Positions 53,685-59,114 of a stretch of 64,000 nucleotides of DNA are shown here, one piece after another; positions within the stretch are counted from its first letter, which is position 1; every line of letters starts with the position of its first letter. Both the position numbers and the translations under genes were made by a program. The stretch spans positions 30,697,001-30,761,000 of the forward strand of contig CP142461.1 in assembly GCA_038049695.1 (NCBI GenBank), written 5' to 3'. Origin of the DNA: Cinnamomum chago. Lineage: Eukaryota > Streptophyta > Magnoliopsida > Laurales > Lauraceae. The notes beneath the pieces are model-generated. The model was given only the letters and a program-made list of their open reading frames with translations. It was not told where the DNA came from and made no database searches.

Positions 53685-53895
53685 CACTACAAGAAAAACT
53701 GCTTTTAGCGGGGGCCGGCAGCCGCCGGTAAAAGTGGTATTGGCCGCCGGTAAAACCTTTAACGGCGGCCAAAGTGGCCGTTGCTTAGCGACAATATAGA
53801 TGGAGTGGGTAAAAATATCAACGGCGTTTTTGGGGGCGCCGCTAAATTTTACTTTTACCGGCGGCCACTGACCGCCGGTAAAACATTTATCCATC
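53685..53895. repeat. CACTA terminus and subterminal repeats
   Basis: The terminal CACTACAAGAAAA is followed by at least six copies of (g)ccgccggtaaaa or its complement ttttaccggcgg. GC-rich words here contrast with the AT-rich surroundings. Confidence 0.85.
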
Positions 53896-53925
53896 GGCAT
53901 TCATCAAGATAAAATCAAAATCCAA

Positions 53926-56399
53926 TCAAATGTAAGGATTGATGTGTGAAGTGTAGTCTCTGATGCCTGCACCTTCCCATCCCATACATTCCTCCCACAA
54001 GTCCCAGCTTGGATCATGCATTCCCCTCATGGAATCATCATAACCATCTTCACTGTATTGATCATAAGATTCATCCGAATTAGATTCCCTCAGATTCGTC
54101 ATCACCATCTGCATAAATCAAACAAACATAACCAACGTTAGATTTCTATAACATCTAAAATTTTATCAGATGTTTTGGATTACACACAGTGGGTGAAAAG
54201 CCCAATCACTTTTTCATCACCTGAGTATATATATCATCACCTATGGAGCTAGAAGATCCTCCTTCTTGGGCAGCACTTAGTTCCTTAAACTTTGACTGAA
54301 CAGAAAAATTAATTAGTGTCATTATACACAAATTGAGGCTTATTGTTAAAATTATCAACTGACGTACAATGATTTCCGTTGATTTCTCATCAACAGGAGT
54401 CTCGTCCTTCCGACTATGGGTGCGAATGAATAGATCCGCCCGAGAAGGAATACTCCCATCAGTCCTGCTCCGAGTCTATCCATGTACAAAGTTAATTTCA
54501 TTACAAAGTTGAATGTCAACGTAAATTCTAAAATAATAAATAATATATTGAACCCATGTACCTCCTCATCTCTATGTCGAGCAAAACTCTTAGTTCCCCC
54601 TGTATGTCTAAGTTTTTGAGCGCTACGATTGGCCTTATTTTTCGAAGCCACAGCCTACATATATTCAACAATATTGCAACAATTTAAAGACGCGAGCAAA
54701 AAGGACTCTTTCACTAAAACATTTTAACAATGGTTTCATACCTGAACCTCTGGACTGCCCCAACATTGCACAAGCCAAGCCCAATCTTCACTAGAAACAT
54801 CAGGGGGTCTATGCTGAAGCCGTTCCTCATCTGTATTCCACAAAGAATAGTACTTATCCTTAATGTCCTTTTTATAATCTCTGTATTTCTTTCCTAACCT
54901 TTGTAGAACCCACTTTTTCCTCTCATCATCAACCACCGCGTAGTCCTGAGATTCAAAAATTGGATTTTCAGCATTGGATATTGGGGTCTTTTGGAGTTTG
55001 GTATTTGAGGATCTTCCCGACAATGCCTCATCATATAATTGTATGGACAAGTAATTACAGGATCCATGCGTCATAACATTCACGATTAACCTCATATTCT
55101 TTCTTGTGACTCGTGAAATTCAGGTATGTGCTTGGATTTTGTGCATGATTTACAAGAAGGTGAATTCAAAATTTTGTGCCCCTGCTGTGATTCTGTTTTC
55201 CCTAGATTCCATAAGTAGCCTAGGGGTATTATAAGAACTGGGTATCGGTTGAAGCGGGTAAAGTGAGATTAAGGTGCCTTACCACTAAATTATCAATAGT
55301 TTTGTACATTGACAACTTGGATTGGTAGGTCTCCAGGGTTAGGCAAGTCAAACGAATCAAGCCAATTAAGACCACACTTGACTTGTTGACCTAAAATGCA
55401 AAGAAAAGACTAGTTGTAAGGGTTTTAGAATGAAAACAGAGATGTGGGTTTTGTATGTCATTAATGAGTTTTATCATGTTTAATGTAGAGATAGAGAGAT
55501 GGGTTTTTCATGTTTTTTTCATAAAAAAACAGTAGTTGGGTCTCAAATCCATGACATTAAACCTACAAAGCAAAATGCCTAGACAGAGAAATAACAGAGA
55601 TGTGGGATTTGTATGTTCTAACAGAGCACATAGCCAGCCCTTCATGAGCTATATCATGTTTAATGCAGAACAAGATATGGGTTTTACATATTTTTACAAG
55701 CAAAACCATACTTGGGTCTCAAATGCAATGCAGAATTTCTAATCCAATGCACGAGAATCAGATGACTTTCACATTTTCACTGGCCATGTAATTAATGCAG
55801 GGACAGAATTGGAATAAGAGAATAAAAGCTACAAATGGGAGGAATTTAGAGCATACCAAACGGCAATGCAGATCATATACCCAGAAGAAGAGAAGAAAAT
55901 AACTCAAAGCACAGAAGACATGAATATAGAACTAAAACTTTAAAAAAAAAAAAAAACCCCCCATAAATCACCCCTCATTACACCATGTACATTTCATTTC
56001 AACATCCCAGACATCACGTAAAAACAACCCAGTGACCCAGGGATAGATTCCCGTGCATTTGTGAGAGTGTTGGCAAAAACAGAAAAATAACTAAAGAAGG
56101 GAGATGTACTAGTATGCAAAAATAAATGGTTCATTACTATTTACCTGGATATGCTTCCACATTTTCTCTTTTGATTGCTCTGGAACGTCAGCCCATTTCG
56201 TAACCTGTAATGGTGCATTACCAGGTGTCCTTACAATTATTCCGCATAATGTGGCGAAAGGCCTAGCATTATCACCTATAGGTTGCCCTTCTGCATTGAA
56301 CTGCACAACTAGTTTATCATCGGGCCGCCTATTAAACAATTTAATGCCTCGGCTGCTCCCTCGAGTCCTCTTTTTCCCACTGGTAGGATCTGTTTTCAA
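53926..56399 (-). CDS. Ptta/En-Spm plant transposase (Transposase_24-like), multi-exon, partial
   Basis: Minus-strand exons with matching splice signals read as a TNPA/Ptta-type protein. They are: about 56,399-56,145 ([23 protein letters not shown]...[10 protein letters not shown]), donor CAG|GTAAAT; about 54,947-54,742 ([27 protein letters not shown], then [22 protein letters not shown]), donor CAG|GTATGA; 54,654-54,562 ([23 protein letters not shown]), donor GAG|GTACAT; about 54,476-54,372 ([20 protein letters not shown]); about 54,297-54,214 ([24 protein letters not shown]); and an acidic end near 54,114-53,926. These motifs match plant Ptta/En/Spm transposase proteins of CACTA elements. 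Exon frames look open, so it may be recent. The N-terminal part was not found upstream of 56,399, where host-gene fragments begin. Confidence 0.7.
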
Positions 56400-56832
56400 A
56401 GTTTAAGAGTTGATAACCGATACAATACTAAAGAATAATATTGACAGCCCACTAGACAAAATGGTTTAGAATTTAGATCAGCATACACAGGCACAGCCGA
56501 CGCAGAAACATCCCAAGACAAACCAATTCAAGAGGGGAAAAAAACTGAAAAGAGCACTGCAAGTCTACAACACATGATATCAATTACAGAGAGAATGTCA
56601 ATCAAAATGCCACTGGTTCAGGGAAATACATTTACCTTAGTGGCATTTAGTGCTTGGCCACCAGGTGCCTATAAATATTTCATTTGTAAAGGAAGAGAAC
56701 TATCACAGATTATCTCATCTCTAACTATAAATCAGGCATTAATAATCCCATTGGGCCCTTGCTCAAAAGAAATAACTTAAGATAATTTCAAGAAAAGCCC
56801 TTGCTTCACACCTTCACCTTAGCTGCAGCTTC

Positions 56833-57312
56833 CTAGATCTGCTCAATTGTGAAAACACCAATGATGTCATCATCTGTCACTGCATTAATAACTGCCAACG
56901 CAACATCATCTACACTAACAAGTGGTGCTAACAGGAGATCAGAAGCTGGAAGTGAATTCAAAGGCCTTGTAATATTTTCAATTGCCTGCAGGAACCTTTC
57001 TAATGGTTCTCCTATCAAATCAAGCGGGATCTCGAAGCCATCCACTCTTCGTTTCCCATATATGAAACCCGGCCTTAATACAACACCTGACAGGTTCAAA
57101 ATTCAGAACTGGAGCAATATTCCCCTAGAAAAAAGACTAAGCAAGAAAGTACGATGAATGACCGACTAAGATAGAGAATTAATTACCAGAGCTTGGGTAT
57201 TTGCCAAGGACCTCTGATTCAGCTTTCCTCTTTCCAGTGAAGTATCCCAAAGAAAGTAGAAATGATGGCAGATTGTAATCATGCACAGATATCAGGATAA
57301 ACTTAGGAGTTC
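56833..57312 (-). pseudogene. Fragment of an At1g32220-like NAD(P)-binding Rossmann-fold gene
   Basis: Two minus-strand exons with correct splice sites: 57,312-57,187 (TPKFILISVHDYNLPSFLL...GYFTGKRKAE, acceptor TTGCAG, donor CTG|GTAATT) and 57,086 down to 56,833 (GVVLRPGFIYGKRRVDG...VSVDDVALAVINA...GVFTIEQI). The two join in phase (Ser-Ser-Gly-Val). The protein resembles the C-terminal part of the plastid/mitochondrial epimerase-like family of Arabidopsis At1g32220. A TAG at 56,833-56,835 stands where the family continues with Lys (EAAAKV follows in frame). The Rossmann nucleotide-binding N-terminus is absent, so this is a fragment. Confidence 0.8.
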
Positions 57313-57418
57313 CTGCAATGAAAAACAACATATGTGAATATGAAGAATTACTAGTCCTCCGAACCAGAAGTATACATGCATTAGTTCACTGATTCATTAA
57401 GACGAGGCATAAACTAAC

Positions 57419-58255: not shown

Positions 58256-58633
58256 GAAGCAATAAAACACCTTCTCTTTTTTGTGTGCAAAAGCTCCCTT
58301 AAATAACATATGGTGCAAATCAGGAACAGTAATATATAGAAACACATGGGAAGCTACACATGCATGTTTGTCTATAATTACTCTGTCAAAATCAAAATTA
58401 AAAGGAGCAATCAAAATAGTACAGAATAGAACAAACCTAAAAAAAAAAAAAAAAGAAGAAGAAAAAATCAGACCTGAGGAATAGATTGGTTGGGCCAACA
58501 AGATAAGCTGGATCAATTCAGTTCCATTCTTTTTTGTGGGTGGAAATTTATGATACCCAGATGCTTCAAAGTTATTTCTTCAAAGGAGGAAAGAAGAATA
58601 AAAAGAAGAGAACCTACGACATTTTGTACTCAC

Positions 58634-58770
58634 ATCTGTTGTTATCAACTCCACAAGCTTGTCATAATTGGGATTCTTTTTACCATCTCTGTAAGGAATG
58701 AATTTATATGGGACAGCATATGGCAACAAGTTTATTGCAGCAGTAAAGACATCAATGCAGTACCCCTTCA
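58634..58770 (-). pseudogene. Fragment of a plant glutamate-receptor-like (GLR) gene, one exon
   Basis: A 137-bp minus-strand exon reads [20 protein letters not shown] then [18 protein letters not shown], ending ITTD|GTGAGT. This is the start of the ligand-binding S1 part of plant GLR3-type channels. The acceptor TTTAG is directly in front. No pore (M1-M3), S2 or N-terminal ANF domain is nearby. The reading frame is open, and the upstream sequence on the same strand is unrelated. Confidence 0.85.
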
Positions 58771-58952
58771 CTAAATGGTTCGCAAACAAAAAGAAAAGGA
58801 CGAAATCAAATATAACCACTGGTTCAAAACATGAAGAAATCAAGGGCAGTGATCAAACAACAAAAAGGGGAGTAAACTGGGTATCGATCATTAAACCATC
58901 CAAAAACAAATAAATAAATAAACCAACAGCAATTTGGTTTGATTTGTAGAAC

Positions 58953-59072
58953 CTCCAAGAAACGCACTGGCAACTCTCCTCTACTCTTTGCCTCTGGTAT
59001 TGAGTGAGGCTCCCTAAAATTAGTCAGAAAAGTCAGTCTCCCATCTCTTGTACAGCCCAACCAAGTGGCCAA
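58953..59072 (-). pseudogene. Fragment of a TANGO2/NRDE-family gene, one exon
   Basis: A minus-strand exon reads TWLGCTRDGRLTFLTNFREP then AKSRGELPVRFLE, ending GAG|GTTCTA. This matches an internal N-terminal exon of the plant Ser/Thr-rich TANGO2 homologues (NRDE family), whose proteins contain TWL.ST.(N/D)GR.AFLTN and AKSRG.LPVRFLES. The conserved N-terminal NRDE motif is not found upstream. It is the fourth captured host fragment, on the same strand as the others. Confidence 0.7.
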
Positions 59073-59114
59073 GGCCTTAGTAATGAACACATTGACAGAC
59101 CTCTGATCATCCAA

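Follow-up and report, generated by a model that had tools for sequence, protein, structure and literature searches.

How does one transposon come to hold pieces of several unrelated host genes? The question is raised by a CACTA (En/Spm-type) element that begins at position 53685 of the window, the 64,000-nucleotide stretch C11:30697001-30761000 analysed here (coordinates above 64,000 continue the same numbering beyond it). An earlier note on the window had described a clear left CACTA terminus, a Ptta-type gene and, to the right of these and in minus-strand order, TANGO2-like, GLR, BGAL (three exons) and At1g32220-like (two exons) fragments, and these features were found as described (Table 1). 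Whole-genome searches covered 1.06 Gb in 14 contigs, labelled C1 and so on, of what is a plant by its genes. The cargo of the element is a mosaic in which at least seven source loci of the host are represented. It has probably replaced the middle of an element of one CACTA family, hereafter family-1, and has probably reached it in part by way of a second family.

Boundaries of the element

The right terminus, which the earlier note had not found, lies at 70534, 6.5 kb past the window edge; no other facing end as far as 93,000 has 0 or 1 mismatch. The 13-bp motif CACTACAAGAAAA is matched without mismatch at each end, and the flanks read GGGCCT/CACTAC on the left and GTAGTG/CCTCTT on the right, giving CCT as the 3-bp target site duplication (TSD). 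The element, at C11:30750685-30767534, measures 16,850 bp, counting a hAT insertion and a solo long terminal repeat (LTR). The two end types belong together, since a 1,022-bp element on C5 (L059), with the TSD TAT, carries both. Subterminal repeats are met at the left end, and the subterminal sequence of the right end differs. Genome-wide, the motif occurs 1,190 times in forward and 1,231 times in reverse orientation, against 52 and 50 times for a reversed-pattern control, and CACTA ends of this kind are therefore abundant in the genome.

Between the ends, the cargo extends to 69,882 and is broken by the hAT element and the solo LTR, both of which are later insertions and not cargo. The hAT element has an uninterrupted transposase frame of 803 amino acids (59888-62296) that matches DUF4371 and Dimer_Tnp_hAT. 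Both insertions are absent from another copy of the element on C4 (copy A, see below), whose alignments meet at these places with overlaps of 9 bp and 8 bp, as is expected of empty sites. The Ptta region belongs to a family with at least 30 further loci (74 matches, with the best 40 of 1036 candidates scored). With 15 frames of a TNP2-type gene (44.9-48.9 kb), for which the self matches served as control, tblastn gave no match inside the element, which is therefore probably non-autonomous.

Source loci of the cargo

A donor locus is taken here to be a site where one fragment sits within a gene that extends past the fragment. Loci of this kind were found in the same genome for every named fragment, which answers the donor search proposed in the earlier note. 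Chance can be excluded: each of the four named pieces aligns with its introns to a locus of its own over 204-853 bp, at an identity of 97.6-98.6% when gaps are disregarded. Because introns align throughout, capture was from DNA and not from mRNA, as the earlier note had proposed. That the fragments are parts of resident genes was rejected, the donors lying elsewhere and the flanks being different.

Protein matches identify most of the named pieces. The BGAL piece matches Pfam BetaGal_gal-bd (1.6e-10) and a beta-galactosidase in the PDB (2.5e-34), and its donor matches GHD (3.2e-24) and SUEL_Lectin (6.5e-7, just under the cut-off). The GLR piece matches GLR3.3 in the PDB (1.1e-18), its donor ANF_receptor (8.9e-80); for TANGO2, the Pfam match has a value of 1.6e-10 in the piece and 9.5e-35 in the donor. 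The fragment at 56624-57379, which we take to be At1g32220-like, has no Pfam match and no PDB match up to E 0.1. The joined peptide of its donor matches NAD_binding_10 at 1.5e-4, below the Pfam cut-off, and the donor has by eye an additional exon upstream and a stop downstream.

The earlier note had counted four donors; it had missed an ACR9-like intron, a piece that adjoins an ABC-transporter gene on C6, and 2.2 kb from a locus on C2. The ACR9-like donor has an ACT_ACR9_3rd domain (2.3e-19) in the next exon, and about 110 bp of it are gone from the piece at 58387-58389. The C6:81609106 piece adjoins an ABC2_membrane exon (1.3e-6) of opposite strand sense. The C2 locus at 94.72 Mb, traced by a DNA search with 65063-66165 (14 matches), aligns to 59068-59500, 65063-65423, 65472-66166 and 69164-69882 at 96.5-98.9%, 2.2 kb in total. 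Its neighbours are a CGLD27-like gene (4.7e-28) on one side and a PRA1 gene (6.3e-53) on the other. Because of these host genes, and because 13.8 kb of the locus show no CACTA end with 0 or 1 mismatch, we take it as a seventh source locus; the idea that it (L040) is a further CACTA copy was rejected, the end matches with 2-3 mismatches being scattered and host genes flanking it on both sides. The sources lie on six chromosomes (C6, C3, C11, C8, C5 and C2) and the pieces measure about 0.1-2.2 kb. Within the C2 piece, a deletion joint between 59260 and 65171 is common to five loci (L022, L045-L048), and L045-L048 resemble copies of one repeat.

The claim that all fragments lie on the transposase strand stood for the five recognised genes: the At1g32220-like, BGAL, ACR9-like, GLR and TANGO2 pieces have the same orientation as Ptta. 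It fails for the C6:81.6 Mb piece if that piece is part of the adjoining ABC gene, in which case it is antisense. In the C2 piece, one candidate exon points the same way as Ptta; it corresponds to no named protein, and Pfam gives nothing above its cut-off for it. No bias of orientation is claimed, because the pieces are too few and the left three arrived as one block. In the 315 recognised codons, fragments and donors differ by 11 nonsynonymous and 2 synonymous changes, and therefore no protein constraint is visible on the fragments. A transcript that started in the right end would read through the five recognised fragments in sense, and chimeric spliced transcripts are therefore possible.

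Carriers of the cargo in two families

Searching the genome with 56640-59120 yielded 54 matches, 40 of the 41 candidates having been scored. The joint between At1g32220 and BGAL is present in 12 of the matches listed, ours among them, and that between GLR and TANGO2 in four (ours, copies A and E, and C6:55614122). The ends were checked in five carriers, namely ours, A, E and two further elements, B and C. All five have CACTA-type ends, and the block without such ends, which the earlier note had named as evidence against capture by a CACTA element, was not met among them.

Copy A, with its right end at C4:52477105, carries the block between CACTA ends (97.3% identity), and 1.3 kb of other sequence takes the place of about 2.4 kb of the Ptta region. 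Its left end consists of three tandem CACTA ends in units of about 765 bp (C4:52484740-52486269; L035, L006 and L036). Copy E (C3:105870518-105878013) is likewise bounded by CACTA ends, here with the TSD AGG; its cargo is the same but for an insertion of about 2.1 kb in the BGAL part. Both ends and the TSD of our element, together with the recurrence of the block between CACTA ends in A and E, uphold the CACTA capture proposed in the earlier note. Divergence between copies is about that between copy and donor (for TANGO2, 97.6% identity from ours to A and E and 98.6% from the donor to A and E), and therefore capture and spread were close in time.

Elements B (C1:24509825; 4,480 bp, TSD ACA) and C (C5:29587192-29580195; 6,998 bp, TSD CGA), in each of which both ends were read, belong to a second CACTA family with other ends than those of family-1. 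Their ends are CACTACTAGAAAA, with one base changed at each right end, and their subterminal sequence is of the TATATCGG type. They resemble an element at 36707-39049 of the window, which matches the ends of B at 95.8% over 259 bp and 84.2% over 297 bp. Of the cargo, B and C contain the left half (At1g32220-BGAL-ACR9-C6), and what they share with ours stops at 58573, where GLR starts. The roughly 110 bp of the ACR9 intron are present in the donor, B and C and gone from ours, A and E, and B extends 28 bp deeper into the At1g32220 donor than ours does. Because of this retained intron sequence and the extra 28 bp, the form in the second family is the older one, and the left half probably passed from the second family to ours. 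Capture by the element itself, as the earlier note had it, thus holds in general and is probably not direct for all of the cargo, the left half being common to the second family. Loci in which 56740 is joined to 57305 (L034) were considered as elements from before the capture and rejected, deletion forms with a 7-bp overlap being simpler. The window element at 36707-39049 is complete, with the TSD ATC, lies by eye within a Copia-like gag frame and contains a 192-bp tandem repeat in 3.8 copies (37782-38504).

Joints and proposed assembly of the cargo

Relatives of family-1 that are free of cargo show where it was placed. In three loci (C2:5.34, C3:42.9 and C5:24.79 Mb) the left match breaks near 56625-56630, as was also read in one relative. 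The right end is likewise matched in these three loci, with order and strand unchanged, at a distance of 6.3-8.8 kb; they are absent from the list of cargo matches and are known from the matches at each end. On the right, the match breaks at 69885 in six of seven further right-end loci (L056, L057, L058, L060, L061 and L062; the seventh is L059). These break points indicate that the cargo stands in place of the middle part of a family-1 element.

The joints are nearly blunt. The overlaps are 0 bp (57379/57380), 1 bp (58573), 2 bp (58775-58776) and 0 bp (59067/59068); near 56624 a few bases overlap with a mismatch, and short filler is present between BGAL and ACR9 and before 69885. Joints of this kind are best read as gap filling with template switching, and end joining of pieces also fits them. 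In the proposed pathway, the At1g32220-BGAL-ACR9-C6 part would first have been assembled in the second family, which retains the full ACR9 intron. This left-half block would then have been copied into a gapped family-1 element, and repair synthesis would next have switched to GLR (C8), TANGO2 (C5) and the C2 locus and from there have returned to the right end of family-1. The product would have multiplied to at least three copies, ours afterwards taking up the hAT insertion and the solo LTR.

Other routes to the same structure are conceivable. In the fusion of neighbours, the model put forward for Pack-TYPE elements in PMC8903248, two nearby CACTA elements use their outer ends and take along the DNA between them in repeated rounds. 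The tandem left ends of copy A show that ends can pile up side by side, as this model would have it. It would nevertheless require one round for each locus and the loss of every inner end, and with small pieces from six chromosomes, near-blunt joints and no inner CACTA end found at the joints, it is unlikely here. It is quite unlikely, too, that a second-family element with the left cargo was inserted into a family-1 element and that deletions then removed both its ends, with a separate origin for GLR, TANGO2 and the C2 piece. Ours does hold an internal stretch that corresponds to 1485-3578 of B, out of 643-5122, with neither end of B. Both deletions would have to end within the cargo, and one would have to stop precisely where GLR is joined; a motif scan of our element gave no remnant of second-family ends.

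Helitrons, which make no TSD and have a 5' TC and a 3' hairpin with CTRR, and Pack-MULEs, with long terminal inverted repeats (TIR) and TSDs of 8-11 bp, are likewise known for cargo from several genes. That the block is the cargo of one of these and merely adjoins a CACTA end is highly improbable, since the block in ours and E, and its left half in B and C, lies between CACTA ends with 3-bp TSDs. A Helitron was rejected on the TSDs found in ours and E, no search aimed at Helitron ends having been made, and a Pack-MULE on the 3-bp TSD and the CACTA ends.

Several observations weigh against replacement by gap filling with cargo from the second family. Microhomology of 0-2 bp fails to separate template switching from end joining, and no TSD is established for copy A, owing to the tandem repetition of its left end. 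Three loci (C5:69.50, C2:60.20 and C5:69.64 Mb; L042-L044) join At1g32220-BGAL to pieces of the C2 locus in another arrangement, with neither GLR nor TANGO2 in the stretch read, which argues against a simple succession of events. Both carrier families could also have inherited one ancestral cargo, neither of them donating it to the other. As to autonomy, a catalytic transposase was excluded solely by tblastn with the frames of one TNP2-type gene, and L061, a relative free of cargo, has a short TNP2-like match.

Features of the element and its surroundings

Table 1. Features of the CACTA element in window coordinates
Feature	Position	Strand	Evidence
Left CACTA terminus, CACTACAAGAAAA	53685..53697	+	motif match; TSD CCT at 53682-53684
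Subterminal GCCGCCGGTAAAA-type repeats	53703..53883	.	inverted repeat 53703-53735 / 53851-53883, 82%
Ptta-type (Transposase_24) gene	53930..56402	-	exons by eye from stop-to-stop frames; Pfam Transposase_24 4.7e-10
Presumed At1g32220-like fragment, two exons and introns	56624..57379	-	donor C6:1775935, 98.0% over 756 bp
BGAL fragment, three exons and introns	57380..58264	-	donor C3:15324309, 12 mismatches in 853 bp
ACR9-like intron piece	58265..58466	-	donor C11:45347139, 96.7% and 97.4%
C6:81609106 piece	58467..58573	+	95.8% over 95 bp; 20-bp match 58554-58573 further along
GLR fragment, exon end and intron	58573..58776	-	donor C8:13798447, 98.0% over 204 bp
TANGO2 fragment, exon end and intron	58775..59067	-	donor C5:14111335, 97.6% over 293 bp
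C2-locus piece, first part	59068..59509	-	C2:94.72 Mb; resumes at 65063-66165 and 69164-69882
hAT insertion	59510..65062 (past window end)	-	TSD AGGCTCAC, 8 bp; nested in CACTA element
Solo-LTR-like insertion	66166-69163		TSD ACTTG

Just left of the element, a solo-LTR-like insertion with the TSD CATAC occupies 50576-53366 and is weakly similar to that at 66166-69163. The remains of a TNP2-type CACTA transposase lie on the plus strand at 44866-48940 (Transpos_assoc, 4.4e-17). Farther off, 1020-3931 and 20480-23360 are duplicates (95.4% over 2.9 kb), and both contain a frame of about 575 amino acids that is presumably DUF247-like. A tandem repeat with periods of 53, 106 and 159 bp (33208-33662) lies inside a stretch of raised GC content (about 28-36 kb).

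Relation to known elements and significance

Capture of several genes by CACTA elements is already known (PMC1947982, PMC8903248). Tgm-Express1 of soybean, as described in PMC1947982, is a 5.7-kb CACTA element in an F3H intron, with pieces of five unrelated genes and demonstrated chimeric transcripts, and shows that such fragments can splice into host transcripts. Like it, our element is of CACTA type and carries exon and intron pieces of unrelated host genes, of DNA origin and with splice sites kept. In contrast to that case, ours, known from sequence, draws on seven source loci; its donors and further carriers are traced within one genome, and a CACTA family with other ends shares half of its cargo.

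The elements called Pack-CACTA or Pack-TYPE (PMC8903248) share with ours the CACTA ends, the TSD and internal coding DNA of several loci. Ours differs in retaining the Ptta gene, most of the Ptta region being absent from A and E, and in joints that suit gap filling rather than the neighbour fusion preferred there. In the Chenopodium CACTA elements (PMC8978399), captured DNA lies 5', upstream of the first open reading frame, as ours lies upstream of Ptta, although the cases named in the passages on capture hold pieces of one gene each (Neprosin or AP2). Animal TIR elements with filled gaps (PMC8277862) resemble ours in having filler with short microhomology, there with a reported median of 2 bp; their filler comes largely from nearby parental copies, whereas ours comes from six chromosomes. 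What is unusual is that two CACTA families carry one cargo. A literature search, which was not aimed at this point alone and left subscription papers mostly outside, gave no report of a multi-gene cargo shared by CACTA families whose ends differ.

The manner in which CACTA elements take up genes is disputed between neighbour fusion and gap repair with template switching, and these models predict different joints. In this genome the donors occur together with cargo-free relatives, later copies and a second family of carriers, diverged by a few per cent, so that each joint can be read. The same multi-gene cargo in two CACTA families suggests spread beyond the family of origin. As a tentative extension, gene cargo may move between CACTA families with different ends by template switching into a gap, outliving and changing its carrier family, and would then form a pool of ready exons in the sense of the carrier's transcription.

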